From Siphonodentalium dalli (taxonomy: Eukaryota > Mollusca > Scaphopoda > Gadilida > Siphonodentaliidae): DNA of 64,000 nt. The stretch is from assembly GCA_032622095.1 (NCBI GenBank), contig CP136067.1:50321899-50385898 (forward strand), read 5' to 3'. The position numbers were made by a program, and so were the translations under genes. Of the stretch, positions 5,536-64,000 are shown piece after piece (the stretch's first letter is position 1; each line of letters starts with the position of its first letter). The notes beneath the pieces were generated by a model. The model made no database searches. It worked only from the letters and a program-made list of their open reading frames with translations, and was not told where the DNA came from.

Positions 5536-8500
5536 CTGAAACAAAACATCGGAAGTCCTATATATTTTACAGACCTAATATTGCTTAAAGTTTTTCATTA
5601 ACATTATCCTCCCACTCCTAAACCAATCAATAGTGACGATGTAGATATCACATGACTGAGTGGAAGTATGGCATCAATTTGCTCACTTCTTAACGACGAT
5701 AAGTGATCGTCAGTATACAATGTAACATTATCTATTAATGGATCAAATGCATGTCAAACCAATTAAGTCCACATTCTTTGCGGCCATTTCTGTGAAGCCA
5801 GTAAGCATCCGCATTCACGCAGAAGTTCGACATACACATATATGAGAAATTTTGCTAGATCAGTTACATCAGTGCAAAAATGCTTTGGTGGTCTATAGTA
5901 CTACTCAGTGTTATTTGTATGTGTGGTCTTTCGTTGGTGTCATAATATATTATCGTGAAAAAGCAATGTGGTCTGTTTGAAGTAATGATAATGCAACTGG
6001 TGCCAATGATTCAATACAATTCGAAGGACAGCCAATTTTGAATCAAATCAAATCAGATAAAATATTCCAAATCGCATTGAATCGATTTGCAGGGACCTAG
6101 CGGAGGCAGGCTATGTCACTCTGATAGAGATGGGCGGTTAACCGTGGAATCAGTTCGGTTTCGGTTGTCGGGAAAAACCGGAAATGACAACCGTGGTAAG
6201 TTGGAAAAACCCGTAGTTTCGGTTGTCACAACTTCCTGTAATCATGGCAGAGCACGACGAACAAACGAGTCCTGTGTGGAAATATTTTTCAAAGAAAGAT
6301 AAGAAATTAAGTGTGCCGCCTGTAATATATGCAGAAAGGAGTTCGCATGGTGAAATCGCGCGACGAATTAATTACGTTGCTTCCGTGTACACCTATTTTC
6401 GCCGTAGTAAACACAACACAACTTGTCACAAGTCAGTTTATTTCTCATGATCTTTTAATCATTAAGGCCGTACAAATACTCTGAAAGGTGAATTTAATAA
6501 CGAGGATACGATATCAAAAGGTATCAATCATTGTTACCCGCATTCCCTATTAGTTTTTATCACTGTTTGGATGTTAAATCGTCAAATATATTTGTGCGCC
6601 GTTGATTAAAAATGTTATACCGGAATCGGAGCCGGAATGAATTATACCGTTTGTCGGTAAACTGTTGAGAAATAGCACTCATTCAGGTGACTTGTATTGG
6701 ATCAATTTGGATGCATGTATAGTGTGTACAGTATTATGTTCCCTAAATATGTTAAATTAGGCATATAGCCAGATAATGTGATTGAGAGATTCTAGTCATG
6801 TTTTATTTTAATTTTGTTTATTTCAAATTTTATTTTTCAAATCATAACTATACACATATATCTAGTCACACACATTAGTTTTATGCCAATATAAATGATC
6901 ATTATATTATTTCACACTTATGATCATATGATGCTGAATTGCAGTCATACACAATACACAGACTCACTTGCATTCTAGCACTGCCACTCGACATGGACAT
7001 TAACAATATACATGTAATAGTAACAATATGATACATAATTTACAATTATAAAAGGACATGTACCTCACAAGTTATGGTAATAAAATTGGTGTGTTTTCTT
7101 TGTAATATGATGAAGCATAATTAGATTTTGTTCACATTAGTCATTTTTATTAATAAAAACCGAAACCGAAACCGAGACTCAACTCTTTTTCCACAACCGA
7201 AACCGAAACCGAAACCGAGGCAAATTTTCACAACCGCCCATCTCTACTCTCTGAAGTAACACTTTTCATTATTCAACATGTACCTCACCACACCTGAAGT
7301 AACCCATTTCATTATTCACACTTATCTCACCATACCTGAAGTAACACTTTTCATTATTCAATACTTACCTCACCATGCCTGAAGTAACACTTTTCATTAT
7401 TGGAATCAAGTGTGATTGCCTTGTCGCACTGTTCTAATGATTTGACATAGTCCTGAAGTTTGAGATGACACAGAGCGAGGTTTGAGTGGGCTGCTGACAG
7501 CAAACACACCCTCTTCTTAGCCTGATTCTCCTCCAAAGTGGTCTCGCTCTCGAGGAATTTCGTGATTTTCTTGTATTGTGACATGGCTGACTTGTATTTT
7601 TGTTCCTGTAAGATTGAGAACACTACTTTAGAAAGAGCTGTGCTAGTCATATAATTAACCTTTTCTGTACCAAATTGGTTCTCCTATCAGTTACAATTTA
7701 CAAAAGTATATGTTGAAATGGTCTATTATTCATTTGGAAGGATGTTCACGAAATATAAGCAGATGACAGACAGGCGAGCAGTTAATACAAGTGCAGAAGT
7801 ATTCATTTTCGTTGGTGGGAAATGTTCAGATAATAAGTTCATGTGGCTGTTTGTTGAACTTATCGGTATTATATGAACTACTCATCATTGAGCATTTAGT
7901 AAAGAAAGGTTCGGCACATTTATATGGACAATATATTCCAATTTTAGAATAATATTCAAATCATGTTGTTTTAAAGGTTTGATATTATATTTTATGTTTC
8001 AAACAAATGCAATTCCGTTTAAAATTTAATTAGTTATTGCTTGTAATTCTTTTGACAACAATTAATACAGGCAATGAAAAGTTTCCAAAAATAAAACGAT
8101 TTTATACAGTTTGAAGATTATTCTAAAAATTACATCAAAGTGAAATCCCATTTTCAGTTAAAAAATTATTTCATCAAACATTTTCTAACAGAAATAAGTG
8201 CGCTCTCTGCTATAATAAAATATGATGACGACTGTTACATCTCGAATTGTACATTAAGAGTAATTTTGACAACATAGCTAGACCTATTAACCCTTCGATG
8301 ACTAGAGCTTCCTGAAATTTTGGGAAAACCCTGTGCCAATGCATTCCCTTATATGTGCGAGTCTCCCATAGGGAGCCTCGCATATATAAGAGAAAGCATT
8401 GGCCTAACAATATTTACCTGATATATGTAAGGATTCCTATGGGAGACTCACATATATCAGAGAATGCACTGGAACCGGATCTTTAATGCTGCACCAGTGC

Positions 8501-11500
8501 AGCTCCCATCATAAAAGGGCTAACAAACATGAAATTCAACTGTTCCGAGATCAAAGTAGATACATCAAATATATCTACGAAATTTATACACTCTAAAATG
8601 TTCTTTTAATATCTTTGCTGAAGGTAAAAGTAAAACGGACCAGCTATTTTTTGTTTTTGTGAGATGATAATTTTTATAATATCAATAAGGCATCTTGGGG
8701 CATCTATAGTCCCAGTCTGAGTCAATCCCAGACTATAGAACATGCTATGCATTCAATAGTCTGAAACGTTTCATTAAAAATGGTTTTATGATTGACAGAT
8801 ATCTACTTTTAGTTTTGTTTTTGCGAGTAACAAATTTTATCGGATGAGGGGTGTGCCAAAGGATTTAGTAATGCAAAGAGTAAAATCCAAGATGGCTGCC
8901 AGAGGCGTTCAAATTTGATAGCTCCCATCTAGAGGTGATCCCAAAAATGCCTGTAAATTTTCAAAAGAATTCTCCAATAAATGTGGGCTGCAGTATGTGT
9001 CGATGAGCAGGTTTTGATTCTGCATGCACTATGGTGTGCAAGCACAATCACGCACCTCAAAATCGAAGGACTGGAGATATGTTTCCATCTACGATAAAAA
9101 TGATAAACATAGGCCAAAAAAAATAAATGTTGACAGTGCCTGAGAAACAAATATTTATTTTCGGATGGCCTAAACAATTTTTATTACAAATCCCTGCACA
9201 AGAAATGGAGTCATGTCTAATTTTACCTTGAATAGTTTTGCGCCTTTATCTTTGACGATCTGCGACTGCTCAAGTTTTTCTTCAGCATTCATTTGCCAAG
9301 CATCTTTAGACTAAAACAGATTTAAAGAATTCATTACATAGGGTTGTCAATTAACCCATTAATGATTAACCTTTCAATTTGTCAAAAATAATTACAATAT
9401 TACAATTACAATTTCTTGACTTTATTAGGGATGGAAAGATATACTGATACATAGGTTCATCACGATACAGGAGGTCACAATACATGCACCGATACCAACA
9501 CCAAAATATCATTGAAGCACGATGCATATTACAACCATTATCTACCTACAATATAGGTCACATATCAGTACTTTTAAATTTAATTTTATTGCCAAGTGTT
9601 ATTCCCAAGCACAATTGAGAATGTACTTGCATACATCCTTGTGAGAAATCACTGACCTGTATAATATATCTGTATTGCATGCACTGTTAACCTACTTAAT
9701 ATATAAGGCAGTGTAGCTCAGTAATGCATGTGCATGCTTTGTTGCTTCTGACAATGTAATCATTGAGTCGTTTTAGACAACTTGTAAAGCCTTGCTGCTA
9801 TAAGATACATCAGTACTGTTGATAACAAGATCGCATTTTTGTTCCGCCTACCGCACAGGATATAAGAATAAAAAATAATAATGATAACCTGACAACTTTT
9901 CCACAGATGCACACGTGTAAAAGTTAACCATTTTTGCACTCTATTAATTCCAGTGACTAAATTTAGATTTATTTTCTTCTGTCGTCATTCACGATTCAAA
10001 GTATAGTCACTTACGGACACTGCCAGATGCATGTTACATAACCACAATGTGCACACCATCCTTGAACTTAAGTTAAATTAAATTTATATTGCACATGGGT
10101 CAACCCATGCAAGTCGGGCCATTGTGTATGATACATTTGTCCATATTTATAACACTATAACTTAAGAGTAGTAGTACTATTAGAGTCATAAATATACATT
10201 TATAATCTACTATACTATTGTCTATATTAAATATACATTTATAATCTACTATACTATTGTCTATATTAAATATACATTTATAATCTACTATACTATTGTC
10301 TATATTAAATATACATTTATAATCTACTATACTATTGTCTATATTAAATATACATTTATAATCTACTATACTATTGTCTATATTAAATATACATTTATAA
10401 TCTACTATACTATTGTCTACATTTATCGAGTTACACACTCGTATCACATACCAAGGTATGTATCATATCGTGACCTTATTAGCATATCTTTCCACCCTAG
10501 ACTTCATCTACTTTTATTACGGAGATGTTTAAACATTTCGGCTTAAATATGGGCTCATTTAGTAATACTAATCTAGAAAATCAGTTGGTTGCATGGACTG
10601 AGATCCCCCCCCCCCAAGAGCCTATTGGGGTCACATTCCCCCAACCCAGTCTTGTTACCTGAGAAAATGATTACTTGGGTTCTTCATGTACATGGACTTA
10701 TTGGACCAATGGGTGCAGAATAAATCTAACCAGTTTATAAAATAAAATAAAATAAATTGGGCAACCAAACCTACATGTACTCACTCTTGAAACATAAGAT
10801 TGGGTCAGGTGGAAAGAAGATATTTTTAATTGTGGCCCAGAGGAAACCCTGATTTAGATAAGTTTACCTCATGTTTCGAATCTCAATTAAACAGTAGTTT
10901 ACTAGACCAGCATGGGACCCTGTGAGACCCCAGACCAGGCCTCAAAATATGGTGTTGGACATTCAGAATTTGCAGAATGAGGTCCCCAGTGGGTGATTTA
11001 ATGTCACAAAATTCATCACCTGACCTCATTTTGAATGGCCTCATCTGCAATGGGAGACTTAAGATACAGATTTAAAATCCCAGATGGTGAAGATGGTAAT
11101 GTGCACCCATTGGGCACCTCGATTATGCATTATGTTGTCTGCCATTTTGGGGATATAGAGAAACTAAATTAAAAAAGAAAATTTGTTATATGGGGTATTG
11201 TCATTTAATTCACACTCCGGGGACATCTTTCTGCAAATGTCCAGCGCCATATTTTCAGGCCTGGAAGGCAAATACAGTAACCACAGCAGAATTATGGGTA
11301 ACTTTTCAGGATTTATTCGGAAATATGGCTTGTTGCCATTCATCGGAAAGCTCTCACTGAGAGCTTTTCGATGAATGGCAACAAGCCATATTTACGACTA
11401 AATCCTGAAAAGTTACCCATAATTCTGCTGTGGTTAAGGAGTCGATTACTTGGGGCATTACTGTATTTAAGCTGTGGAGGCCTAATGATAGTCACCTTCT

Positions 11501-14500
11501 CAAAGCTTTTGAGTTCCACCTCATACTCCACAGAAGCATTAGGTGGAATGTTAAGTTCAGGCTTGCCTTCCTCGCCGTATGCATATATCGAATTAACAAT
11601 TATCTTCGATTTCTCCTTCTCTGTGAACTTTCTCAGAGCTATCTCTAATCCTTCAACAACTCCTTGTTCACTACCATCGCCTAGTTCAAACTGTATTTCT
11701 CTGTCTTCAAAAACATTTCCCTCATATTTCCCCACATAATGAACTGGAAAATACATGAAAAACACACCTGAGTTAACCTTTTCTATACTAAATACTCATT
11801 GATGAGTAGTTCCCTTCTTAACCCTTTACCCAACAGAAGAGCCCTGTGCCAATGCATTCTCTTATATATGCGAGTCGACCATAGGTCGCCTCACATATAT
11901 AAGAGAATGCATTGGCTTAACACATTAAAAATTATATTGAGTTTTTTAGGCCAATGCATTCTCTTATATATGCGAGGCGACCTATGGTCGACTCGCATAT
12001 ATAAGAGAATGCATTGGCACAGGGCATAACTATAACCATCACAATGTGGTCAGGGAGCCGGTTCCAATGATATCCATATTTGTATGGTTCTATTGAGACA
12101 GACCGAAGATATTTTAGGCTGTTGAAGCTTTATTTGGCCGGTTTTGGCCGGTTTGTTGGGTAAAGGGTTAAGGGAAATGTTCAGATAAATAGTTCAACAT
12201 AGGTCATTTGTTGAACTTATTATCTAAACATTTCACACAAATGAATACAAATTCTTCTGTACTTGTATTACTAGTATCATTCCATCTGGCTGTTGTCTGC
12301 TCATATATCCTTTAAAGGCCTCCATATGAATAATAGACAAGTGTGAGCATTAGACTTATTTACTGACAACACACCATTTGTAAATAGGGAAGGCTAAAAT
12401 TTGAAAACCCCACAATAATTATATAAACATGAAATGAGAAGTTTTACTGGCAATGACTTTGATCAAATGTATTCGCTGTGGATTACAATCATTTGAATGT
12501 AATGCAATTTCATTGGTAAGTGATGTAGTACATTAACCCTTTACCCAACAGAAGGGCCCTGTGCCAATGCATTCTCTTATATATGCGAGTCGACCATAGG
12601 TCGCCTCGCATATATAAGAGAATGCATTGGCTTAACACATTAAAAATGATAAAATTGTTAAAGAATGTAAGAAAAAATGGTAAAAAGTGTTAAAAAAAGA
12701 TTTTTTTTAGGCCAATGCATTCTCTTATATATGCGAGGCGACCTATGGTCGACTCGCATATATAAGAGAATGCATTGGCACAGGGCATAACTGTAACTAT
12801 CACAATGTGGTCAAGGAGCCGTTTCCAATGATATCCATATTTGTATGGTTCTATTGAGACAGACCGAAGATATTTTAGGCTGTTGAAGCTTTATTTGGCC
12901 GGTTTTGGCCGGTTTGTAGGGTAAAGGGTTAACAGGTGGAATCCGGTCTCTTTGAGAAACCGACGGCAATTACAAACACAGCTTCATAATGTGTTGACAG
13001 TTTTCCCACTCATAGAGCGACACATAAATTTACAAATTTTATAATACAGATAACAAGCAACATATGAATGTGATAAAATAACTCACTGAAATCTAGAAGA
13101 CAATATCTTCCAGATTACATCGGGGCCTCGGTGGCTCAATCGGTTAGGGGTACAACTCCTAGCCGTTTCGCCTTCCAGCGCTGGCGATAAGGGTTCAAAT
13201 CCACATGTTTCCATCGTGGACTTTTTTGTAACTCGAAATCGTTATCTGGGAAAGTTGCCAGTTACTTGCCGATGGCCGGTGGTTTGCCGCACATGGTCGA
13301 CGAATTTATCAGCCATTGAAATCACTGTTAGATTAGCCGTAAGTGTGCGGATTTCCTCCACGATTAAAACTGGCAATGTCGTGATATGGCCTTAGTGGCT
13401 AAAACGACATAAAACCCCAATCAATCAATCAATCAATCAATCAATCCAGATTACATCAGCCAAGGATATGGTGATTTTGTTTGGATGATTGATTCACTGT
13501 GATCCATTCAACACCAAAAAATTGAGTGGCGATGATTAGCGAGCATTAAAATGGAATGTTGTAAACAACTTGGTATAGTTACAACCAAACTTTATTTAAG
13601 TTGGATCTCCCCAGTGTTTGGTGTTTTGCTTATCACACACTATTTACCCCACTGTAACAGAACAGATCCTCTGTTTACAAACACTGTGTGAACTTGACAA
13701 TACCATGATATTTATGCGATATTTATGATTGGTATAAGAATAATATCTGTCTATATTTTAATATTCTTTCAGTTTATGGTGGTTTTGATGGATGTGACTA
13801 TTTTAACAGCAATACCGTCGCAAAGGCCTCCCATGTCTTTAATGGAAAATCTAGGGAAGTAAATCTGAAATATTGTCGTCAGCTTTTTAAAGAGACTGAC
13901 GGTGAGCAGCAATCTGCAAAAGTGGTCATGTTGACTGAGTATAAACGTGGCAGTTCAATGTTCTTTTAGCATTTGTAATAAGATTTTATCTCTAAATATA
14001 ACCAACAACACATAAATTAAGTGATCCAAATATAGCATTTTGAAGTAAGAGACAAAATTACCCCAATAGGGTTGGAAGAAAATAATCTCTGCATTATGTG
14101 TATAATAGTGGTCAATAGCATACCATTAACAATCGCTCCCTCATTAGGATTCTTGTTACTAATTCCTTTGTGAATCTGGTGCCTAATTATACGGCCATCC
14201 TTCTCATCTGATAAATCTTCTCCTGTAAAAATATTTATATACATGTATCTTGTCTGTTATCCTGTAGGAGTTGTTAAAATAATAATAATGACAGTTTTAT
14301 ATAGCGCTTAACCAATTACTTGCTCTTAGACGCTAATGACAAAATGAACAATTCTGGATATAAAGTGTCTGACATTTACAGAATGAGTTCCTCAGAGGGT
14401 GAATTTAGGACGATATCCCACACAAACTTGTGACGAAGGGCTGCGTCACCAAGTTCCCCCTCTGGGAATCTCATTCTGCTTAGTTGCCAACTGCTATGGG

Positions 14501-34660: not shown

Positions 34661-34895
34661 TTACAAATTATCTTTTTAATTTCTTTTGGTAATTGCCATG
34701 GCTTATCACAAATAAAAAATCTAAATCAACTCGGCCCGGACTACAACTTTTAGAGTGTCTCGCTGTGGACATCGTCGTTCCAGATTCCTCTAAAATAGAC
34801 ATGCGCAGAATTACTTCCGATATCTGCTATAACCAAAGCTGCAGCCGATCTCGAAGTCGCTCATTTAGTCGCTTGTCGCCTATAACCTTGGCATC

Positions 34896-34915
34896 AACCT
34901 TTTTTATTTTTACAG
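34896..34915 (+). promoter_or_regulatory. possible 5'-UTR splice acceptor upstream of the ATP5F1C start
   Basis: The stretch CCTTTTTTATTTTTACAG ends about 30 bp before the ATG and looks like a polypyrimidine tract plus AG. If used, the 5' UTR is split and the apparent upstream in-frame extension (from 34693) is partly intronic, not coding. Confidence 0.45.
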
Positions 34916-34944
34916 GATTGTCACACTCTCCTGTACATGCGACC

Positions 34945-35823
34945 ATGTTTTCCAGGACAGTTTTGATTTTATCTCCACCTTCAACATGTGTCAACACACG
35001 TGGTATGGCTACTCTGAAAGATATCAGAAACCGGTTGAAGTCAGTAAAAAATATTCAGAAGATTACCAAGTCAATGCAGATGGTTTCTGCAGCAAAATTT
35101 GCCAAAGCTGAGAGAGAGCTTAGACCTGCTCGACCATACGGTCATGGAGCACAGGCATTTTTTGAAAAAGCAGATGTGGCAAATGATGAAACCAAGCCTC
35201 AGCACCTTGTTGTCGCTGTATCATCAGACAGAGGCCTCTGTGGAGCTATCCATTCAAGCATTGCAAAGACCATCAAACTGAAAATTGCTGATAGGGGCCA
35301 AGGAGTAGATACAAAGATTGTTGCAGTTGGCGATAAAGCAAGACTATTAATGCAGAAGGGATATGCATCTAATATCCTGATGCACTTCACAGAAATTGGA
35401 AAGAAACCACCTGTATTTCAAGATGCTGCAATAGTTAGCAAAGCCATACTTGATTCTGGATATGAGTATGACTTTGGGGAGTTGTATTTCAACACATTCA
35501 GGTCAGTGGTGTCCTATAGAACAACTGCTGTTCCTCTGCACTCATTAAATAATGTTAGTAAGGCAGAAAACATTGGAGTCTATGACAGCTTGGATGAAGA
35601 GGTGCTGCGCTGTTACAATGAGTTTGCAATGACCAGTCTGATCTACTTTGCTATGAAAGAGAATGCAACAAGTGAGCAGAGCTCAAGGATGACTTCTATG
35701 GATAGCGCCACCAAGAACGCAGGTGAAATGATAGACAAACTGACCTTGGCTTTCAACAGAACCAGACAAGCTGTTATCACCAGAGAACTGATCGAAATCA
35801 TATCTGGAGCAGCAGCCCTATGA
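34945..35823 (+). CDS. ATP5F1C: ATP synthase F1 subunit gamma, mitochondrial
   Basis: This is the central rotor shaft of mitochondrial F1Fo-ATP synthase; the gamma subunit turns inside the alpha3beta3 ring. The 292-codon frame has a basic mitochondrial targeting peptide (MFSRTVLILSPPSTCVNTRG). It is followed by the conserved N-terminal helix (MATLKDIRNRLKSVKNIQKI, TKSMQMVSAAKFAKAER), the SSDRGLCGAIHSS motif, and the C-terminal helix SEQSSRMTSMDSATKNA ... TFNRTRQAVITRELIEIISG, ending GAAAL exactly as in other animals. Human is 298 residues, so it is full-length. The open frame begins at 34693, but the first 84 codons are unlike any targeting peptide; I take Met at 34945. The whole coding region has no intron. 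A polyadenylation-like ATTAAA and an A tract lie 250-270 bp after the stop, so a retrocopy origin is possible. No disabling change is visible. Confidence 0.95.
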   Translation: MFSRTVLILSPPSTCVNTRGMATLKDIRNRLKSVKNIQKITKSMQMVSAAKFAKAERELRPARPYGHGAQAFFEKADVANDETKPQHLVVAVSSDRGLCGAIHSSIAKTIKLKIADRGQGVDTKIVAVGDKARLLMQKGYASNILMHFTEIGKKPPVFQDAAIVSKAILDSGYEYDFGELYFNTFRSVVSYRTTAVPLHSLNNVSKAENIGVYDSLDEEVLRCYNEFAMTSLIYFAMKENATSEQSSRMTSMDSATKNAGEMIDKLTLAFNRTRQAVITRELIEIISGAAAL

Positions 35824-43611: not shown

Positions 43612-44725
43612 GCCTGGCATTTGTAGAATGAGGTTCCCAGAGGGTGAATTTAGTGACGCTATCCTACACAGCAGGCTAGCATAACCAAATACACCCTCTG
43701 AGAACCTTATTCCGCTTAGGCCTCATCTTCTGGGAAGTATCTAGAGTCTCAAGATCTCATTCTGCTTAGGCCTCATCTTCTGGGAAGTATCTATAGTATC
43801 AAATTTACATTGTTGTTAGTTAAATTTCCCTTCTAGGAAGTTTCTGTATCCCTTAATTTGCAGAAGATAAAATTCATGATTGAGGTGCCCAATGGGTGAA
43901 CATCACCAATTTCAACTGGGGAACTTCAATCTTATTCTAGGTCTTCCATAGCAGTTGAGGGCCTTATCAGAATGAGGTCCCCAGAGGGTGAATTTAGTGA
44001 TACTAGCCCTCTGTGCAGGATAGCCTCACTAAATTCACCCTCTGGGTACCTCATTCTGCAAATAACAGACAGACTATTTCAAAGCTTGATTCAAGGCTAG
44101 CATCACCAAATTCACCATTTGGGGACCTCATTCTGCTTAGGCCTCATCTTCTGGGAAGTATCTATAGTATCAAATTTACATTGTTGTTAGTTAAATTTCC
44201 CTTCTAGGAAGTTTCTATATCCCCTAATTTGCAGAAGATAAAATTCATAATTGAGGGGCCCAATGGGTGAACATCACCAACTTCAACTGGGGAAATTCAA
44301 TTTTATTCTAGGTCTTCCATAGCAGTTGAGGACTTTATCAGAATGAGGTCCCCAGAGGGTGAATTTAACGTCACTAAATTCACCCTCTGGGGACCTCACT
44401 CTGCAAATGACAGACACACTATTTCAAGGCTTGTTGTATAATACATTGTGTTGCTTGAGGCCAGGCATACACAATGTAGGAACAGACACGCTTTTTGTGA
44501 TGCTATCCGGCACAGCAGGCTAGCATCACCAAATTCACCCTCTGACGACCTCATTCTGCTTAGGCCTCATCTTCTGGGAAGTATCTATAGTATCAAATTT
44601 ACATTGTTGTTAGTTAAATTTCCGTTCTAGGAAGTTTCTATATCCCCTAATTTGCAGAAGATAAAATTCATAAATGAGGTGCCCAATGGGTGAATATCAC
44701 CAACTTCAACTGGGGAACTTAATTT
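43612..44725 (+). mobile_element. cluster of three tandem GAATGAGGT-family MITEs
   Basis: The block CCTCATCTTCTGGGAAGTAT ... CAAATTTACATTGTTGTTAG ... GCAGAAGATAAAATTCATAA ... CAACTTCAACTGGGG occurs three times (about 43770, 44140, 44560; spacing near 370 and 420 bp). Each is preceded or followed by family hairpins (e.g. 43975-44056, 44340-44405). The pattern suggests unequal exchange or repeated insertion into the same element. It splits the GGTGACTGG array. Confidence 0.65.
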
Positions 44726-46216: not shown

Positions 46217-46609
46217 CCCTTTACCCAACAGAAGGGCCCTGTGCCAATGCATTCTCTTATATATGCGAGTCGACCATAGGTCGCCTCGCATATATAAGAG
46301 AATGCATTGGCTTAACACATTAAAAATTATAAAATTGTTAAAGAATGTAAGAAAAAATGGTAAAAAGTGTTAAAAACAAGTTTTTTATTAGGCCAATGCA
46401 TTCTCTTATATATGCGAGGCGACCTATGGTCGACTCGCATATATAAGAGAATGCATTGGCACAGGGCATAACTGTAACTATCACAATGTGGTCAAGGAGC
46501 CGGTTCCAATGATATCCATATTTGTATGGTTCTATTGAGACAGACCGAAGATATTTTAGGCTGTTGAAGCTTTATTTGGCCGGTTTTGGCCGGTTTGTTG
46601 GGTAAAGGG
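46217..46609 (+). mobile_element. TTAA-flanked hairpin MITE, subfamily 1 (copy C), in the LINE
   Basis: TTAA at 46213-46216 and 46610-46613. Perfect CCCTTTACCCAACA ends and two intact hairpins. It sits in the LINE codons for the RT motif LDFKKAFD: CTCGACTT-TAAG reads L-D-F-K when one TTAA and the insert are removed. Confidence 0.9.
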
Positions 46610-47138: not shown

Positions 47139-47487
47139 CCCTTTACCCAACAGAACTGCCCTGTGCAGGTCGCCTCGCATATATAAGAGAATGCATTGGC
47201 TTAACACATTAAAAATTATAAAATTGTTAAAGAATGTAAGAAAAAATGGTAAAAAGTGTTAAAAAAAGATTTTTTTTAGGCCAATGCATTCTCTTATATA
47301 TGCGAGGCGACCTATGGTCGACTCGCATATATAAGAGAATGCATTGGCACAGGGCATAACTGTAACTATCACAATGTGGTCAATGAGCCGGTTCCAATGA
47401 TATCCATATTTGTATGGTTTTATTGAGACAGACCGAAGATATTTTAGGCTGTTGAATCTTGTTTTGGCCGGTTTGTTGGGTAAAGGG
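47139..47487 (+). mobile_element. TTAA-flanked hairpin MITE, subfamily 1 (copy D), in the LINE
   Basis: TTAA at 47135-47138 and 47488-47491. The left arm of hairpin 1 is deleted (CCCTGTGCAGGTCGCC); hairpin 2 is intact. Removing it joins ACCACCATTAA to TAAATCAAATCAG, which reads T-T-I-N-K-S-N-Q in the LINE frame. Confidence 0.9.
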
Positions 47488-48036: not shown

Positions 48037-48404
48037 CCCTTTACCCAACAAACCGGCCAAATAAAGCTTCAACAGCCTAAAATATCTTCGGTCTGTCTCA
48101 ATAGAACCATACAAATATGGATATCATTGGAACCGGCTCCTTGACCACATTGTGATAGTTAGTTATGCCCTGTGCCAATGCATGCTCTTATATATGCGAG
48201 TCGACCATAGGTCGCCTCGCATATATAAGAGAATGCATTGGCCTAAAAAAACACTTTTTACCATTTTTTCTTACATTCTTTAACAATTTTATAATTTTTA
48301 ATGTGTTAAGCCAATGCATTCTCTTATATATGCGAGGCGACCTATGGTCGACTCGCATATATAAGAGAATGCATTGGCACAGGGCCCTTCTGTTGGGTAA
48401 AGGG
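48037..48404 (-). mobile_element. TTAA-flanked hairpin MITE, subfamily 1 (copy E), LINE 3' UTR
   Basis: TTAA at 48033-48036 and 48405-48408; inserted in the opposite orientation to copies C and D (GGCCGG tail first). Both hairpins are present. It lies between the LINE stop codon and its (ATG)n tail. Confidence 0.9.
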
Positions 48405-50362: not shown

Positions 50363-50642
50363 CCCTTCCATGACTGGAGCTTCCTGAAATTTTGCGAAAA
50401 CCCTGTATCAATGCATTCTCTTTATACATATGCGAGTCTCCCATTGAGTCTCCCATTGAGTCTCCCATTGAGTCTCGCATATATAAAAGAATACATTGGC
50501 CTAACAATACTTACCTTGAACCTTGTAAGGCAGTGCATTCTCTTATATATGATATGTGAGGCTCCGTATGGAAGACTCACATATATAAGAGAATGCATGG
50601 CCCAGGATCTTTAATGCTGCACCAGTGCAGCTCATGAAAGTG
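50363..50642 (+). mobile_element. TTAA-flanked hairpin MITE, subfamily 2, with triplicated loop
   Basis: After TTAA (50359-50362) it begins CCCTTCCATGACTGGAGCTT, and TTAA recurs at 50643-50646. The tip of hairpin 1 is expanded: GAGTCTCCCATT is repeated three times (50434-50470). The second hairpin (about 50525-50600) has the CATTCTCTTATATATG stem with GGCTCCGTATGGAAG at the tip. Confidence 0.7.
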
Positions 50643-50646
50643 TTAA

Positions 50647-51277: not shown

Positions 51278-51499
51278 TACAGCAATGCCCTAAATATTCA
51301 ACTCCTTAACCACAGCAGAATTATGGGTAACATTTCAGGATTTAGTCGGAAATATGGCTTCAAATGTTGCCATTCATCGGAAAGCTCTCCCCGAGAGCTT
51401 TCCGATGAATGGCAACAAGCCATATTTCCGACTAAATCCTGAAAAGTTACCCATAATTCTGTTGTGGTTAAGGAGTCGATTACTTTGGGCATTACTGTA
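51278..51499. mobile_element. fold-back palindromic MITE, copy 2
   Basis: TACAGCAATGCCCTAA ... TTGGGCATTACTGTA, with arms of about 100 bp meeting at AAAGCTCTCCCCGAGAGCTTT. Same family as 11273 and 55065. It is inserted at TA. Confidence 0.85.
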
Positions 51500-51832: not shown

Positions 51833-51867
51833 CTTCTTTCTGGTCGCGTTTGCGATTTCTCTGCCAT
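51833..51867 (-). CDS. possible first coding exon of an unidentified gene
   Basis: ATG at 51867 in a good context (CTCAATATGG) opens MAEKSQTRPER. After 35 nt it ends at a consensus donor AGAAG|GTAAGT. No downstream exon with matching phase was found in the remaining sequence to the left, so this could be a chance resemblance. Confidence 0.3.
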
Positions 51868-54399: not shown

Positions 54400-54403
54400 T
54401 TAA

Positions 54404-54626
54404 CCCTTTGAGTGCCAGGTCTTTGTATCAACCCATATACCCTGTGCCAATGCATTCTCTTATATATGCGAGTCGACCATAGGTCGTCTCGCATATATAA
54501 GAGAATGCATTGGCCTAACAATTTTTTTTTTTTTTTTACAATTTTATTAATTTATTCTTATATTCTTTAACAGACTTATTTTGTAGGTTTAGGGCCGATT
54601 AGATCGGCCCCTGGCACTCAAAAGGG
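54404..54626 (+). mobile_element. TTAA-flanked hairpin MITE, subfamily 3
   Basis: TTAA at 54400-54403 and 54627-54630. The termini CCCTTTGAGTGCCAGG and CCTGGCACTCAAAAGGG differ from the other subfamilies. It has only one hairpin (54443-54512), with the same CCAATGCATTCTCTTATATA stem and TCGACCATAGGTCG tip as subfamily 1. A second small palindrome GGGCCGATTAGATCGGCCC lies near the right end. Confidence 0.85.
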
Positions 54627-54630
54627 TTAA

Positions 54631-55064: not shown

Positions 55065-55283
55065 TACAGTAATGCCCTAAGTAATCGACTCCTTAACCAC
55101 AGCAGAATTATGGGTAACTTTTCAGGATTTAGTTGGAAATATGGCTTGTTGCCATTCATCGGAAAGCTCTCAGTGACAGCTTTTTCCGATGAATGGCAAT
55201 AAGCCATATTTCCGACTAAATCCTGAAAAGTTACCCATAATTCTGCTGTGGTTAAGGAGTCGATTACTTAGGGCATTACTGTA
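55065..55283. mobile_element. fold-back palindromic MITE, copy 3 (most complete)
   Basis: TACAGTAATGCCCTAAGTAA ... TTACTTAGGGCATTACTGTA: both arms are about 105 bp and nearly identical, with the centre at AGCTCTCAGTGACAGCTTTT. It has TA-type ends. A perfect-length reference for copies 1 and 2. Confidence 0.9.
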
Positions 55284-55965: not shown

Positions 55966-55969
55966 TTAA

Positions 55970-56198
55970 CCCTTCCATGACTGAAGCTTCCTGATATTTT
56001 GCGAAAACCCTGTGCCAATGCCATATGGATCCTCGTATATATAAGAGAATACATTGGCCTAACAATATTTGCCTTGACCTTAAAGCCAGTTCATTCTCTT
56101 TTATATGCGAGGCTTCCAATGGAAGACTCTCATATATAAGAGAATGCACTGGCATAATATCTTAATGCTGCACCAGCACAGCTCCAGTCATGAAAGGC
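55970..56198 (+). mobile_element. TTAA-flanked hairpin MITE, subfamily 2, deleted hairpin 1
   Basis: It starts CCCTTCCATGACTGAAGCTT after TTAA (55966-55969) and ends before TTAA at 56199-56202. The left arm of hairpin 1 is mostly lost (CCAATGCCATATGGATCC). Hairpin 2 (56090-56152) is intact with GAGGCTTCCAATGGAAGACTC at its tip. Confidence 0.7.
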
Positions 56199-56202
56199 TT
56201 AA

Positions 56203-57060
56203 AGATTTCCTTTCCGATTTAACACCCATAAACTATTATTTCTTTGAAGCTCAGAGCTATTATATTTCGATGCTATTAGAATTCCCCAGTGTGCTTTCAT
56301 CAAAATGTACACAAAAATAATTGGCAAATTCTAAGTCAACAAGGATCATAACTCCAGTAAAAATGGGTGGACCTCACCCATATTCAAACTTGACCTGTAC
56401 CCCTAAACAATAATATCACATACCAAATATCGTTTAATTTCATTAATTATTACATGACTGAAGATATTTTCCGGAAACCATCTGGGATGGACATATGGAT
56501 GGATGAAACAATGGCCGGGCAGATTTCGGGACACAACAAATATCTTCTTTCATGTGTGATCGGCAAGGTATTAAAACTTGTCTATTTTCATGCATAAAAC
56601 ATGATTACTGAGTTGGGAATAAGTATACTTATGTATAAAACATCTGGTTTCTGATGATAATTTTTGTTGTCTTTTATTTCAAGAATAATTTACAATTTCC
56701 AAAGCTACCGCGACTTGAGTGACCTCCCAAACTCTCATTGCGGCATCCTCGTATGTCGGTAGATATTTCCAGTAGAATTTTTACTGGGCTGACAACAAAA
56801 ACTCGAGGTGGTGAAAATAGATCGATTTAAAAAATTTAATTTGAACGGTGGGTTTTTCGACTCAAATCAAATATTGTTCACACCTGAACCCGAAGAAATA
56901 GTAACTTAGGGGGGTTAAAATCGGACACAGTATCTTTAATAATTACAGATATTGGTCATCTTTAATGCATTTAACCCTTTCTATACTACCAAAGCATCAT
57001 TGATGAGTAGTTACAATAGGAAATGTTCAGATAATAAGTTCAATGAAAGTGTCAATGACA
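56203..57060. other. GGCCATAACTCC repeat unit, otherwise nothing
   Basis: 56335-56530 carries ATCATAACTCCAGTAAAAAT, CAAACTTGACCTGTACC and a GGATGGACATATGGATGGAT tail. 57010-57040 has the GAAATGTTCAGATAATAAGT repeat. No gene was recognised. Confidence 0.45.
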
Positions 57061-57063
57061 CTG

Positions 57064-60036
57064 TAGCTCAACTTAGGTAGGGGAATAATTTAATGGTTGA
57101 CAGTAAATGGAGGAATAGGAAAGGTGCTAATTGAAATGTCTAACATGCGCCAAAGGATTTAGTGATGCAAAGAGTAAAATACAAGATGGCTGCTGGTGGC
57201 CATTTTTTTTGGCCAATTGACCCCAAAAGAACTCGTTCCCATCTACGTATAATTGTTAACATCCATGACAAATTTTATGAAGATCTGACCAAAGCTACGA
57301 CATACAAATTTCATGATGATCAGACGAACAGTACGACCTGTAGACCGCGCCAATGGATTGAATTTTAAAATCCAAGATGGCCGCTGGCAGCCATGTTTTT
57401 TGGCCGAATGACCCCACAATGATTCGTTCCCATCTACATGTCAATGTCAACATTCATGACAAATTTAATAAATATCAGACCAAAGGTATGACCTGTAGCC
57501 CACGCCAAAGGATTTAGTCATGCAAAAAGTAAAATGCTGGTGGCAATGTTTTTTGACCGAATGACCCCAAAACGACTCGTTCCCATCTACATGTCATTGT
57601 TATAATTAATGACAAATTTCATGACCATTTGACCAAAGCTACGACCTGTAGCCCGCACCAAAGGATTTAGTCATGCAAAGAGTAAAATCCAAGATGGCTG
57701 CTGGCGGCCATGTTTTTTGACCAAATGACCCCATAACGACTCGATCCCATCTACATGTCATTGTTATCATTCATGACAAATTTCATGATGATCAGACGAA
57801 CAGTACGACCTGTAGCCCGCGCCAATGGATTGAATTTTGAAATCCAAGATGGCCGCCAGCAGCCATGTTTTTTGGCCGAATGACCCGACAATGATTCGTT
57901 CCCATCTACATGTCAATGTCAACGTTCATGACAAATTTTATAAAGATTAGACCAAAGGCAACCTATAGCCCGCGCCAAAGGATTTAGTCATGCAAAGAGT
58001 AAAATCCAAGATGGCGGCCATGTTTTTTGGCCGAACGACTCCAAAATCACTCGTTCCCATCTACATGTCAGTGTTAACATCCATGACAAATTTCATAAAC
58101 TTCCGACCAACACAACGACCTGTAGCCCGCGCCAAAGGATTTAGTCATGCAAAGAGTAAAATCCAAGATGGCTGCTGGCGGCCATGTTTTTTGGCCGAAC
58201 GACCCCAAAATCACTCGTTCCCATCTACATGTCATTATTAACATCAATGACAAATTTCATGATGATCAGACGAACAGTACGACCTGTAGCCTGCGCCAAT
58301 GGATTGAATCTTGAAATCCAAGATGGCTGCCAGCGGCCATGTTTTTTGGCCGAATGACCCCAAAATGACTCGTTCCCATCTACATGTCAATGTCAACATT
58401 CATGACAAATTTCATAAAGATCAGACCAAAGGTACGACCTGTAGCCCGGGCCAAAGGATTTAGTCATGCAAAGAGTAAAATCCAAGATGGCTGCTGGCGG
58501 CCATGTTTTTCGGCCGAACGACCCCAAAATCATTCGTTCCCATCTACATGTCATTGTTAACATCCATGACAAATTTCATGATGTTCCGATCGAAGCTACG
58601 ACCTGTAGCCCGCGCCAAAGGATTTAGTCATGCAAAGAGTAAAATCCAAGATGTCTGCTGGTGGCCATGTTTATTGGCCGAACAACCCCAAAATGACTCG
58701 TTCCCATCTACATGTCAATATTAACATCCATGACAAATTTCATGATGATCAGACGAACAGTACGACCTGTAGCCCGCGCCAATGGATTGAATCTTGAAAT
58801 CCAAGATGGCTGCCAGCGGCCATGTTTTTTGGCAGAATGACCCCAAAATGACTCGTTCCCATCTACATGTCAATGTCAACATTCATGACAAATTTCATAA
58901 AGATCAGACCAAAGGTACGACCTGTAGCCCGGGCCAAAGGATTTAGTCATGCAAAGAGTAAAATCCAAGATGGCTGCTGGCGGCCATGTTTTTCGGCCGA
59001 ACGACCCCAAAATCACTCGTTCCCATCTACATGTCATTGTTAACATCCATGACCAATTTCATGATGTTCCGATCGAAGCTACGACCTGTAGCCCGCGCCA
59101 AAGGATTTAGTCATGCAAAGAGTAAAATCCAAGATGGCTGCTGGTGGCCATGTTTATTGGCCGAACAACCCCAAAATGACTCGTTCCCATCTACATGTCA
59201 ATATTAACATCCATGACAAATTTCATGATGATCAGACGAACAGTACGACCTGTAGCCCGCGCCAATGGATTGAATTTTGAAATCTAAGATGGCCACCAGC
59301 GGCCATGTTTTTTGGCAGAATGACCCCACATTGATTCGTTCCCATCTACATGTCAATGTCAACATTCATGACAAATTTCATAAATATTAGACCAAAGGTA
59401 CAACCTGTAGCCCGCGCCAAAGGATTTAGTCATGCAAAGAGTAAAATCCAAGATGGCTGCTGGCAGCCATGTTTTTTGGCCGAACGACCCCAAAATCACT
59501 CGTTCCCATCTACATGACAGTGTTAACATCCATGACAAATTTCATAAACTTCCGACCAAAACAACGACCTGTAGCCCGCGCCAAAGGATTTAGTCATGCA
59601 AAGAGTAAAATCCAAGATGGCTACTGGCAGCCATGTTTTTTGGCCGAACGACCCCAAAATCACTCGTTCCCATCTACATGTCATTATTAACATCAATGAC
59701 AAATTTCATGATGATCAGATGAACAGTACGACCTGTAGGCCGCGCCAATGGATTGAATCTTGAAATCCAAGATGGCTGCCAGCGGCCATGTTTTTTGGCC
59801 GAATGACCCAAAAATGACTCGTTCCCATCTACATGTCAATGTCAACATTCATGACAAATTTCACGAAGATCAGACCAAAGGTACAACCTGTAGCCCGCGC
59901 CAAAGGAAATTGTTGACGGACACACGGACACACGGACACACGGACACACGGACACACGCACACACGCACACACGCACACACGGACGACGGACGCCAAACC
60001 ATGGCAATAGCTCAAACTTACAAGTAAGTTGAGCTA
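57064..60036. mobile_element. TAGCTCAACTTA-ended element containing a higher-order satellite
   Basis: Left TAGCTCAACTTAGG and right CAAGTAAGTTGAGCTA are inverted ends. The interior is a tandem array (57140-59905) plus a (GGACACAC)n stretch (59918-59985) and the motif GACGGACGCCAAACCATGGC before the right end. The same ends and monomers occur at 14912-17107. No coding capacity, so it is presumably mobilised in trans or amplified as a satellite. Confidence 0.7.
57140..59905 (+). repeat. 161-bp satellite with a three-monomer (483-bp) higher-order period
   Basis: About 17 monomers share ATCCAAGATGGC, GGCCATGTTTTTTGGCCGAA, CTCGTTCCCATCTACATGTC, CATGACAAATTTCAT and CGACCTGTAGCCCGCGCCAA. Type A begins AGGATTTAGTCATGCAAAGA; type B begins TGGATTGAATCTTGAAATCC. 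From 57355 the order is B-A-A repeated. Open frames at 58503, 58986 and 59469 are spaced by exactly 483 bp. These 73-codon frames are by-products and not genes. Confidence 0.85.
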
Positions 60037-60039
60037 ATA

Positions 60040-60605
60040 ATACTAGTAGGTCATTTGTTGAACTTATTATCTGAATATTTCCCACCTGTGGATATAAATC
60101 ATTCTGTTCTCCAATTTTCTGTGTTTCTGTCTTATGCTTTTATCACCTGAACCTCCTAATGAATAACATAAGTTCCAATGTATACTTTTTTATTATGTCA
60201 GCTCTTGCGATGATAAATAGTGACGGTATATGGAATAAATAATAGGTGCTTATCCACCATCTTGTTTTTCTGGGATATTTTTGTGTATTTTGGTGCCAAG
60301 AAAGAGGATATCTGTCGGAAATAAATTTTTTTGAATTTAAAGACATAGTACCATGTACCAAAACCTGCATGCGATATATTTGAGGAATTATAAAGACTCA
60401 TAAATAAACTATCAAACTCAACAAGTTGTTCTACTTCTGGTGATTATTCATTGACTCAGTGCGTTGACGTTCAACGCCCATGGCGCGTCACTGTGACGTT
60501 ACATAAGTTAATGACCATAGGGACACATTTAACTTACCCAATTAAATAAATTACAGAGATGATTAATTAAAGGGATAAGCTGGATTTTGTCCACTGACAT
60601 AATAA
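60040..60605. other. nothing recognised
   Basis: It includes a short inverse copy of the TTCAGATAATAAGTTCA repeat (60045-60090). No coding exon. Confidence 0.4.
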
Positions 60606-60609
60606 ATAC

Positions 60610-60756
60610 GTTACGGGACGCTTAGTGGTCAGATATGGTGTCATGTGAGTCTCAGCGAGATCAATATTAGGCTCGGCCTACAGCCTCGCCTAATATTGAT
60701 CTCACTTCGCCTCACATTCATATGACACCATATCCGAACACTAAGCGTCCCGTAAC
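60610..60756. mobile_element. 147-bp fold-back palindrome
   Basis: GTTACGGGACGCTTAGTG ... CACTAAGCGTCCCGTAAC, with arms of about 65 bp (ATATGGTGTCAT, GAGATCAATATTAGGC and complements) meeting at CTCGGCCTACAGCCTCG. Probably a MITE. No other copy was noticed in the window. Confidence 0.75.
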
Positions 60757-61002
60757 TTATAATATCTGAATGGGAGAATCCATTTCGTATAGAAAGGGTT
60801 AAACACATTAGGTTTTTGGAACATAAGAAAAAGAATTGGATATAAATATTTCTGGATAACACAAAAAATAGTGACACGTGACTCATGAAATCAGCAACAA
60901 ATAATAAGTTAGAGGGTATTTACATCTGGAAGGCCTATGTACAATAGATGATGTATGCCTGACTGTGTCCTGACACATAGGGAGGTCTTTGATCATATGG
61001 TG
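60757..61002. other. nothing recognised
   Basis: Short spacer without features. Confidence 0.4.
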
Positions 61003-61006
61003 TTAA

Positions 61007-61256
61007 CCCTTTCATTAATGGAGCTGTGCTGGTGCAGCATTAAATATCATGTGCTAGTGCATTCTCTTATATATGTGAGTCTCCCCATTGGGAGGCTCGC
61101 ATATATAAGAGAATGCACTGACATAAAAGGTCAAGGTAAATATTGTTAGGCCAATGTATTCTGTTATATATGCTAGGCTCCCAACAGGAGACTCGCATAT
61201 ATAAGAGAATGCATTCGCACATGTTTTCACAAATTTCAGGAAGCTCCAATCATGGA
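61007..61256 (-). mobile_element. TTAA-flanked hairpin MITE, subfamily 2, inverted
   Basis: TTAA at 61003-61006, then CCCTTTCATTAATGGAGCTG. Two hairpins (61055-61118 and 61150-61215) with tips CTCCCCATTGGGAG and GGCTCCCAACAGGAG. The right end (AGGAAGCTCCAATCATGGAT) has lost the terminal GGGTTAA. Confidence 0.65.
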
Positions 61257-61594
61257 TGAGTCATACCAGAAACGACATTCAAGAGAGCCCACATTATATT
61301 GTGATAAATTTCAAAATGTATGCACTTGGGTAGTCTTGTCTAAATTGCATGACAATAGTTGTGCATGAATGACTGCATTCAATTTCTGTTAACTGTTATA
61401 ATGATTTTGCTAAACCTGTCACCAGCACAACATTAATTTTAACCAATTTTACATATTCAGACAGGACCTTGTTTTAAAACATTAAAATTTATGCCCAGCA
61501 TACTGAATAGAGCTGCATGTAATTCACAAACAAAATTCATTAATATAATAAGATTTGTCTGTCAGATTGCATGAGGACAAGTCTGTATATAGTG
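61257..61594. other. nothing recognised
   Basis: No coding exon or repeat was identified. Confidence 0.4.
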
Positions 61595-62030
61595 TTCTGA
61601 CATTTACAGAATGAGGTCCCCAAAGGGTGAATGTAGTGATGCTATCCCTCACAGCGGGTTAATGTCACCAAATTCACCCTCTGGAAAAAAAATTTCTGCT
61701 TACGTCTTAATTGATATAGGAGACCTAAGATCATATTGAAGTTCCCCAGTTGAAGTTGGTGATGTTCACCAATTAGTCACCTTGATTATGCAATTTAACT
61801 TCTGCAAATTAGGGGATATAGAAACTGAACAGAAGGGGAAAAAGTAACTAAAAACAATGTTAATTTGAGACTATAGATACTTCCCAGAAGATGAGACCTA
61901 AGTGGAATAGGTCCCCAGAAGGTGAATTTGGTGACGCTAGTCAGCTGTGCGGGATAGATTCAATAAATTCTCCCTCTGGGAACCTCATTCTGCAAATGTC
62001 AGACACAATCTATCCAGGCATGGGGACTAA
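61595..62030 (+). mobile_element. near-complete GAATGAGGT-family MITE
   Basis: It opens with GTTCTGACATTTACAGAATG and the first hairpin (to 61690). The middle segment follows (AGTTGAAGTTGGTGATGTTC, CTTCTGCAAATTAGGGGATA, AACAATGTTAATTTGAGACT, TTCCCAGAAGATGAGACC). The second hairpin ends at CCTCATTCTGCAAATGTCAG (62004). It is a useful reference for the split copy at 1001/3755. Confidence 0.65.
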
Positions 62031-62159
62031 CTTGCAGACTTGAGATACGGTGCCAGGGTTCATATATGTCCCATGCATAAATAGTACACTTCAAAATTTG
62101 TTCATATGTCAGAGCGGGAACCAGTATATCTTACGATTTTTTCCATTGTAACAAGTTAA

Positions 62160-62550
62160 CCCTTTACCCAACAGAAGGGCCCTGTGCCAATGCATTCTCT
62201 TATATATGCGAGTCGACCATAGGTCGCCTCGCATATATAAGAGAATGCATTGGCTTAATACATTAAAAATTATAAAATTGTTAAAGAATGTAAGAAAAAA
62301 TGGTAAAAAGTGTTAAAAAAAGATTTTTTTTAGGCCAATGCATTCTCTTATATATGCGAGGCGACCTATGGTCGACTCGCATATATAAGAGAATGCATTG
62401 GCACAGGGCATAACTGTAACTATCACAATGTGGTCAAGGAGCTGGTTCCAATGATACCCATATTTGTATGGTTCTATTGAGACAGACCGAAGATATTTTA
62501 GGCTGTTGAAGCTTTTTTGGCCGGTTTTGGCCGGTTTGTTGGGTAAAGGG
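62160..62550 (+). mobile_element. TTAA-flanked hairpin MITE, subfamily 1 (copy F)
   Basis: TTAA at 62156-62159 and 62551-62554, perfect CCCTTTACCCAACA ends, both hairpins intact (62187-62255 and 62334-62402). Confidence 0.9.
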
Positions 62551-62554
62551 TTAA

Positions 62555-63130: not shown

Positions 63131-63136
63131 TTTATT
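63131..63136 (-). terminator. AATAAA overlapping the stop codon of the right-edge gene
   Basis: On the minus strand the proposed stop TGA is immediately followed by ATAAA, so AATAAA shares the stop's last base. If used, the 3' UTR would be only some 20 nt. A more distal signal is equally possible. Confidence 0.35.
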
Positions 63137-63208
63137 CATAGATTCTTTACTAGTCCTCTGGCACTTGGGTAGATGTTAGAGTTATCCGTCTTCTTCCCTG
63201 TCCTTGGT
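63136..63208 (-). CDS. unidentified gene, proposed last coding exon
   Basis: The acceptor GATTCTATTTTTAG precedes ACCAAGGACAGG. In the phase left by the exon at 63656-63715, the codons read PRTGKKTDNSNIYPSARGLV then KNL and a stop. The two other frames are not compatible with the upstream exon. The encoded tail is basic and Ser-rich and I do not recognise the family. Confidence 0.5.
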
Positions 63209-63655
63209 CTAAAAATAGAATCAAAACTGATAGAAATGAGACTTCCGTAGAATTCCTTGATTTAATTGATAGGTGAACACATAAATATTGCCAAATTTTC
63301 ATTTTGAATTTACATTCTGCCGGAGTAATTAATCTCGTGCGTGGCATTGGAGAGGCCATTTTATAAGCTCCGTAAAGTAAAACAAAAATAGATAACAGTT
63401 CATGAACATGCGAAGAGTAAACAATGATATAAGATCTCTTTTTCAAACTTCTTAAACACAGATTATTTTGGTACGTACATGATTCATGATTTGTGTTTCT
63501 TCCATCCAAAAAATTGACATAGTGATCAGATATTTGTGCTGAACAACATTGAACCCCTAGCAACCAACAAACTTAATCATGATTAACTGAGTCAAAATGC
63601 TTTTCATACTCTATACTAAATAGTGTAACTCATTTGTTACAAAATATTCTCATAC
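63209..63655. other. intron of the right-edge gene
   Basis: Intron between the two proposed exons. The open frame 63150-63563 reads through the acceptor and is not coding in its 5' part. No repeat was recognised. Confidence 0.4.
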
Positions 63656-63715
63656 CTTGCTGACTTTTCTCTTTTACCACTTTTCATTCTGCCCTTGTTG
63701 GTGAATACGGACGGT
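63656..63715 (-). CDS. unidentified gene, proposed penultimate coding exon
   Basis: The acceptor TTACCCTTTGCAG precedes ACCGTCCGTATTC and the donor is AGCAAG|GTATGA. It is 60 nt. Two frames contain stops; the open one reads PSVFTNKGRMKSGKREKSA and leaves AG, which pairs with the A of the next exon to give Arg. The gene continues beyond the right edge. Family unknown; basic residues suggest a nucleic-acid-associated or disordered tail, but this is only inference. Confidence 0.5.
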
Positions 63716-63859
63716 CTGCAAAGGGTAAGAGAATATTCAGTTGGTCATCATAAAAGCACATAAACCCACATAACATTCGCTGTTCAAATCTCGTGCCAAG
63801 TTGTGACCCTTCAGGATGGCCATTCATACTGTGAGTGCTTCGCACCACTCATGTGATAA

Positions 63860-64000
63860 CCCTTTACCCAACAGAAGGGCCCTGTGCCAATGCATTCTCT
63901 TATATATGCGAGTCGACCATAGGTCGCCTCGCATATATAAGAGAATGCATTGGCTTAACACATTAAAAATTATAAAATTGTTAAAGAATGTAAGAAAAAA
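63860..64000 (+). mobile_element. TTAA-type hairpin MITE, subfamily 1 (copy G), cut by window end
   Basis: CCCTTTACCCAACAGAAGGG and hairpin 1 (63887-63955) are present, and the window ends in the spacer. The flank reads GATAA, not TTAA, so its target site has mutated or was atypical. Confidence 0.8.

Follow-up and report, generated by a model that had tools for sequence, protein, structure and literature searches.

Families of miniature inverted-repeat transposable elements (MITEs) that place differing ends on a shared inside have been described in Acropora corals. According to the available excerpts of Wang et al. 2010 (PMC2872659), these CMITEs are TTAA elements with CC[C/T]T ends, about 100 bp long, with a 75-bp internal region that is the more conserved part; tandem arrays occur, piggyBac-like transposons are present, and the origin of the internal region is left open there. 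The present analysis concerns MITE-like elements of the scaphopod mollusc Siphonodentalium dalli, found in a stretch of 64,000 nucleotides (GenBank assembly GCA_032622095.1, contig CP136067.1, positions 50,321,899 to 50,385,898), hereafter the window, and in copies from the whole 2,226,750,531-base assembly of nine contigs. They form four families, numbered 1 to 4, the first three of which occur in the window. Judged from those excerpts, CMITEs are the closest precedent, given that here too differing ends surround one conserved inside across families. Unlike CMITEs as presented there, the core studied here contains a palindrome of 32 bp, usually in two copies of opposite orientation, and one of the four families is not of the TTAA class. 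The 60-bp CMITE consensus given there does not fold into a strong hairpin (z = -0.65), and its sequence shows no clear relationship to that of the core, the alignment score being reached by a fraction of 0.058 of 500 mononucleotide shuffles.

Other described systems share part of this picture. Nonautonomous piggyBac elements have CCC/CCT ends and a TTAA duplication, as families 1 to 3 do, whereas family 4 does not fit. In the accessible portions of the respective papers, the ends of piggyBac and the left end of piggyBat contain palindromes to which transposase dimers bind through their cysteine-rich domains (PMC11707139), and Kolobok, the other TTAA class, is given 5'-RR ends (PMC9587614). The elements also resemble Galileo and Foldback-like transposons in having dynamic inverted repeats, and for Galileo ectopic recombination between copies and template switching have been invoked to account for changes in structure (PMC4168063, from the portion available). 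The Galileo exchanges described there take place within one superfamily, however, whereas here a single core is common to ends that differ in target class. A literature search by sequence strings found nothing relevant.

The explanation we favour, with a probability of about 60%, is that these are short, non-coding and nonautonomous MITE-like transposons whose palindromic core recombines and whose ends can be exchanged. The preliminary description of the window, made from its letters alone, had proposed that a hairpin module moved between families. This proposal is supported, and extended, by the unrelated ends, the single core, a fourth family with another target class, and the existence of mixed copies. 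The presence of the same core in at least four unrelated sets of ends suggests that core and ends are swapped like modules.

The preliminary description had listed twelve TTAA-type elements in three families distinguished by their termini, and elements of these three types do lie at all twelve start positions. A scan for the 27-nt stem arm (at most 7 mismatches) yielded 40 arms in the window, every one inside the twelve elements, and 0 arms in mononucleotide shuffles of the window (n = 5). The elements, and the shared core of the reference copy, are the following.

8291..8519, forward strand: family-2 element, TTAA on the left and CTAA on the right; hairpins A 8335-8403 and B 8413-8473, the latter with a truncated arm
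11822..12167, forward strand: family-1 element, 346 bp; hairpins 11848-11916 and 11950-12018; TTAA on both sides
12537..12928, forward strand: family-1 element, 392 bp; hairpins 12563-12631 and 12711-12779; TTAA on both sides
46217..46609, forward strand: family-1 element, 393 bp, the reference copy; hairpins 46243-46311 and 46392-46460; TTAA on both sides
46237..46467, no strand assigned: shared core in the reference element, made of CCCTGT, hairpin, AT-rich spacer, inverted hairpin and ACAGGG
47139..47487, forward strand: family-1 element, 349 bp, within a frame resembling a long interspersed nuclear element (LINE); hairpin A with its outer arm deleted, hairpin B 47280-47348; TTAA on both sides
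48037..48404, reverse strand: family-1 element, 368 bp, inverted; hairpins 48174-48242 and 48310-48378; TTAA on both sides
50363..50642, forward strand: family-2 element, TTAA on both sides, right end GTG-TTAA; hairpin A with its tip enlarged by a 12-bp tandem repeat (50434-50480), hairpin B 50529-50602
54404..54626, forward strand: family-3 element, 223 bp; single hairpin 54446-54514; TTAA on both sides
55970..56198, forward strand: family-2 element, TTAA on both sides, right end GGC-TTAA; hairpin A with its outer arm deleted, hairpin B 56085-56153
61007..61260, reverse strand: family-2 element in inverted orientation, with hairpins 61053-61122 and 61150-61218; TTAA flanks the left side alone, and the right end is an estimate
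62160..62550, forward strand: family-1 element, 391 bp; hairpins 62186-62254 and 62334-62402; TTAA on both sides
63860..64000, forward strand: family-1 element running past the end of the window; hairpin 63886-63954; left flank ATAA

The TTAA assignment stands for the six complete family-1 elements and the family-3 element, which have TTAA at both sides. It stands only in part for family 2, with TTAA at the left of 4/4 elements and at the right of 2/4 (50363 and 55970), and fails at the left of the 63860 element. Ends of the three families begin CC[C/T]T, and left and right ends match each other within every window family; the family-2 terminus as first quoted is exact at 50363 only. In families 1 and 2 the second hairpin cassette is the reverse complement of the first, as had been noted, and the family-3 element holds a single cassette. 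In the reference element the inverted arms span 46236-46315 and 46388-46467 (80 nt, 99% complementary).

The hairpin has a stem of 27 bp followed, after a T·C mismatch, by 5 bp, and closes with a 3-nt loop. The stem earlier ascribed to all twelve elements as 26 bp takes this longer, interrupted form, and is diverged in family 2. The reference hairpin folds as DNA at -36.3 kcal/mol (z = -12.7), and all four hairpins folded as DNA far surpass dinucleotide shuffles (z from -8.4 to -14.9). Stems are near-perfect in families 1 and 3. The exact CCAATGCATTCTCTTATATA occurs in no family-2 arm, and the 13 family-2 arms detected have 1-5 mismatches each relative to the 27-nt arm; this family is an old one whose copies have diverged. 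Families 1 and 3 carry CGACC/GGTCG at the tip, whereas most family-2 tips read CTCCC/GGGAG or have decayed from it. The observation that tip sequence differs by family with pairing kept was thus borne out, as both tip types are paired in the window and genome-wide.

Genome-wide, where counts of repeats are lower bounds, the stem 20-mer occurs at least 432,440 times with at most 1 mismatch (0 for the backwards control), and twenty 10-kb stretches at preset positions hold 53 arms, distributed over 6 of the 20. Exact family-1 ends number at least 91,612 and exact family-4 ends at least 20,012. Family 4 is known from genome copies, its ends being missing from the window; these run GTGACCCGCCATATCAAATCC..., then TTTTTTTA, then CCCTGTGCC, followed by the same hairpin. 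They have the form GTGACCC/GGGTCAC, not CC[C/T]T, and an exact 4-bp target duplication flanks 8 of 10 two-ended copies (ATAT in 4, AAAT or ATTT in 4), with one end base altered in 3 of the 8. Given that it has neither the TTAA duplication nor the CC[C/T]T ends of piggyBac-superfamily MITEs, family 4 does not fit that group. Hence the core is common to different target-site classes, and the piggyBac-only frame of the preliminary description proved too narrow.

Median within-family identity is 97.1% for family 1 (16 copies), 96.8% for family 3 (7), 94.3% for family 4 (10) and 83.3% for family 2 (5), in a set that omits the overlapping loci L020, L023 and L025 and also L050 and L053. The seven two-ended family-3 copies all measure 212-251 bp, and those read hold one cassette. 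Given that identity is lowest in family 2, the CTCCC core is that of the oldest family, and the three younger families have the CGACC core; from this we infer an older CTCCC core and then a younger CGACC core spreading through families 1, 3 and 4.

The part shared between families begins at the border CCCTGT and comprises the hairpin and spacer in families 1, 3 and 4, and the hairpin with its border in family 2. The hairpin, earlier proposed as the shared unit, is indeed common to the families, yet the unit is larger than the hairpin. Aligned on the inner side, families 1 and 4 score 71 and families 3 and 4 score 80, against a shuffle maximum of 42 in each case. For families 1 and 3 the score is reached by 4/1000 shuffles, and with window copies by 0/500 in both tests. 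The spacer of the family-3 element matches the family-1 spacer in inverted order; the family-1 inner side adjoining the short end has no match to family 4 (0.27), which is what an opposite reading direction of the spacer would predict.

On the outer sides, past CCCTGT, all eight cross-family pairs align no better than shuffles (0.54-1.0, the family-1 short end including about 18 nt of host flank in this test), and both same-family pairs beat all shuffles. The window ends give the same result for 9/9 cross-family pairs (0.24-0.94). The boundary between core and ends is sharp. Simple descent along the whole length, named beforehand as the outcome that would speak against a moved module, is not seen in these outer-side alignments, though families 1, 3 and 4 do share the spacer.

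The set in which mixed copies were found consists of 68 hairpins that retain both arms, 18 of them in the window and 50 at other loci of the genome; it excludes deleted arms, arm spacings outside 38-47 nt and the overlapping loci L020, L023 and L025; locus L051 is partly N. The outer side was defined by the mismatched T, whose partner is C in 66/68 hairpins, T in one and G in one. The flank on that side matches a known end in 64/68, so that in those hairpins the T sits on the arm nearer the element end. Outer flanks belong to family 1 in 28 hairpins, family 4 in 14, family 3 in 11 and family 2 in 11; the other 4 are three diverged family-2 window copies and L055, whose ends match no named family.

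All 28 family-1 hairpins carry the CGACC tip. Two copies combine tip and end differently: the hairpin at L047:400 has a CGACC tip behind a family-2 end, and that at L027:9345 a family-2-type tip behind a family-4 end. The latter is accounted for by a 520-bp tandem duplication with a crossover inside the hairpin: the hairpin is identical to the family-2 copy at 9865 over its left half and to the family-4 copy at 8825 over its right half, and the switch point falls in GACTC next to the tip. A family-2 and a family-4 element have thus recombined within the hairpin. As a separate observation, on the inner side of the L047 hairpin at 400 the spacer is enlarged into several degenerate tandem units of about TTTTTTCTTACATTCTTTAACAATTTT (by eye).

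Under the favoured explanation, the ends would decide which transposase, supplied in trans, moves an element: the CCCTT... ends of families 1 to 3, with their TTAA duplication, would call on a piggyBac-type enzyme, and the GTGACCC... ends of family 4, with a 4-bp AT-rich duplication, on another. Recombination or template switching within the long palindromes would bring the common core (CCCTGT, a 69-nt palindrome, the AT-rich spacer and mostly a second, inverted palindrome) and the ends into new combinations, for example when an excision gap is copied from another element. One core could thereby be fitted with several ends and spread under several transposases, and tip pairing would persist because whole tips are inherited in active lineages. 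End exchange via the palindromic core is the best-supported mechanism; it is seen in one local case and presumably general. Gap repair with template switching would be the usual route, and the transposases would act in trans.

More tentatively, and with odds somewhat against it, the core may be a recombination hub that changes ends even between superfamilies and so escapes the loss of any one transposase. As part of that possibility, a recent CGACC core, with more than 126,000 exact tips, may have swept at least three end types and be entering a fourth (L047). The results bear on the question left by the coral CMITE paper, in its available portion, of why some MITE families have shared insides and differing ends. 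With one core under two target-site classes, a very high copy number and a mapped crossover in the hairpin, end-swapping through recombination at the palindrome becomes directly testable, and it would offer non-coding elements a means of persisting after the loss of their transposase.

Several results weigh against end exchange as the general explanation. Family-2 spacers show no significant similarity to those of other families (0.085-0.35), with at most a weak one to family 3 (0.034, 0.126), so that what family 2 shares is limited to the hairpin and CCCTGT. TA stands at the core border in 14/14 family-4 and 11/11 family-3 outer flanks, which leaves room for an old insertion of the core at TA in those families. 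The sole mapped crossover gave a local tandem duplication, not a new mobile element with matched ends, and the two mixed copies among 68 hairpins could both be local rearrangements. Finally, PF13843 (DDE_Tnp_1_7) piggyBac transposases are present in the genome, with at least 128 matches (116 of 649 first-look candidates scored), many of them open over 500-722 aa, but neither family ends nor hairpin arms were found near 12 transposase copies (within 1-1.2 kb of the domain).

The pairing of the tips was considered separately. Within a space of 16 tip combinations, 138,967 tips were counted genome-wide, of which 126,828 are CGACC/GGTCG and 10,119 are CTCCC/GGGAG; the 14 other combinations, two of which are also paired, total 2,020 (1.45%). 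Two inherited lineages would explain the paired tips without present selection. In the window alignment, 94.4% of cells pair (0/500 shuffles), and 5 pairs have changed on both sides, a number reached by 17/500 shuffles; the further pair types are not unusual (65/500). Changes common to several window copies comprise 32 paired double cells, 10 unpaired, 3 G·T and 4 with the partner missing, whereas private changes comprise 18 unpaired, 6 G·T, 2 paired and 2 with the partner missing; two alignment artefacts, at pairs 9 and 28 of truncated arms, enter these counts, and row 47139A was dropped. In the wider set of 65 full-length hairpins, 27 of them distinct (3/68 with odd tip lengths dropped), 93.1% of cells pair, compared with a maximum of 91.9% in 1000 inner-arm reshufflings. 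The compensatory changes anticipated in the preliminary description are found in the tips, between lineages, and in the shared changes of the window, which are mostly paired, but not in the private changes, which are mostly unpaired.

Some details temper the view that shared changes keep pairing. At pair 8, a one-sided change is common to three family-2 A cassettes, and the double change at pair 24, which is part of a CpG, may be two independent decays. Among the 27 distinct hairpins the contrast between shared changes (44 paired, 9 G·T and 35 unpaired cells) and private ones (2, 7 and 30) is weaker than in the window.

The preliminary description had also suggested that the cassette was kept by arm-to-arm conversion. 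Frequent copying between arms (quasi-palindrome correction) in resident copies could account for a private double change (pair 16 in 8291B), yet it is highly improbable. The T·C mismatch beside the tip, which routine copying should have erased, is retained in 126,828 of 127,660 tips matching GAGKCGACCATAGGTCGMCTC (T or G against C or A; T·T and T·G were not counted), the three other combinations amounting to 832 (0.65%). This retention and the mostly unpaired private changes lead us to reject frequent conversion in resident copies, and the small share of other tip combinations given above also argues against it. Rare conversion may occur in an active lineage, and the first double change of the tip may have come from selection on pairing or from occasional copying between arms. 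That the palindrome is kept by function, as a putative site of transposase binding and synapsis or as a small-RNA hairpin, is a less doubtful alternative, though we consider it unlikely. It would agree with the transposase-bound palindromes of piggyBac and piggyBat in the accessible text of PMC11707139, with the tip having changed on both sides at two pairs, and with a facing TGTGAGTC/GCCTCACA pair, by eye with an identical T·C mismatch, in the hairpin of the element at 56975-60798, a resemblance to the core that may be chance. However, the same hairpin serves families of different target classes, which lowers the likelihood of a binding site dedicated to a single transposase; the family-3 copies read have one cassette; and the piggyBac palindrome is 19 bp, which would leave the 32 paired positions here unexplained.

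Two further explanations concern how core and ends came together. The core might be a mobile element inserted independently into four unrelated transposon families, as nested MITEs. It does have its own inverted repeats starting CCCTGT, and the TA at the borders in families 3 and 4 would suit such insertions, but no duplication is seen at the core borders in families 1 and 2, and the spacer too is common to families 1, 3 and 4. A TTAA immediately 5' of CCCTGTGCCAATGCATTC has 327 matches genome-wide; of ten such loci read, seven carry a family-4 end (with its T run mutated to TTAA, or with only the other end kept), and both core borders are readable in eight, L069 and L071 having the second border outside the printed stretch. 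As TTAA stands at both borders in 0/8, the core as a TTAA element of its own is ruled out, and nested insertion as a whole appears rather improbable. We consider still less probable a single ancestral family whose ends diverged beyond recognition around an inside conserved by function. Families 1, 2 and 4 do have one layout (end, CCCTGT, hairpin, spacer, inverted hairpin, end), and CCCTT with TTAA is retained by three families. Against common descent stand ends that are unrelated up to a sharp border and yet match left to right within each family, a family 4 that differs in both end type and target class, and the mixed copies.

Regarding mobility, the 47139 element interrupts a reverse-transcriptase-like (LINE) frame: 120 nt of each flank joined by one TTAA give a single open frame, whose left piece matches RVT_1 with E = 1.2e-4, under Pfam's cut-off. 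The repeat around the 11822 element is a relative of the TTAA element at 56975-60798: the joined flanks align with the left end of the latter at 79% over 78 columns, and no clean empty TTAA is seen there. The window has 105 open reading frames (ORFs) of at least 75 aa, and no piggyBac transposase was found among the 79 scanned, the other 26 lying mostly in repeats or overlapping a named ORF. Two family-1 ends face each other across 2.4 kb (C1:6269628-6272033), as do family-4 ends across 1.4 kb at two places (C1:4495975-4497384 and C1:4549552-4550937); these may be longer or autonomous relatives, or separate elements.

Beyond the elements, no Rfam family was found in the window at gathering scores and no tRNA gene was found there, and an exact 22-mer of the stem has 0 matches in GTDB genomes. 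A stem 18-mer has 17 exact matches in viral contigs, which were rejected given that none has the hairpin; 16 of them share one flanking context resembling, by eye, a phage coding region. Regularly spaced stem matches at C1:742214-785961 (about 14.5 kb) and C1:820024-926242 (alternating about 6.2 and 5.0 kb) suggest large tandem arrays of which these elements form part.

Other hairpin-bearing repeats occur in the window. The element at 56975-60798, of the TTAA type and 3.8 kb long, has CCCTTTCTATAC ends and includes a 164-bp satellite array as well as a long hairpin of its own at 60606-60760. Another long-hairpin repeat is present in three copies (11278-11436, 51278-51499 and 55065-55283), with arms of 79-101 nt that are 92-98% complementary; one copy overlaps the end of an FKBP-like ORF at 11340-11795. 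A second hairpin-built repeat (CAGAATGAGGTCCCC...) lies at 4967-5222, 43960-44143 and 61596-62003, and also in L067; its copy at 4967-5222 has two successive hairpins between inverted ends, a layout much like that of family 1. An open frame at 34693-35823 encodes an ATP synthase gamma chain closest to animal mitochondrial ones and has no intron in the conserved domain, being either a retrocopy or an intronless gene.

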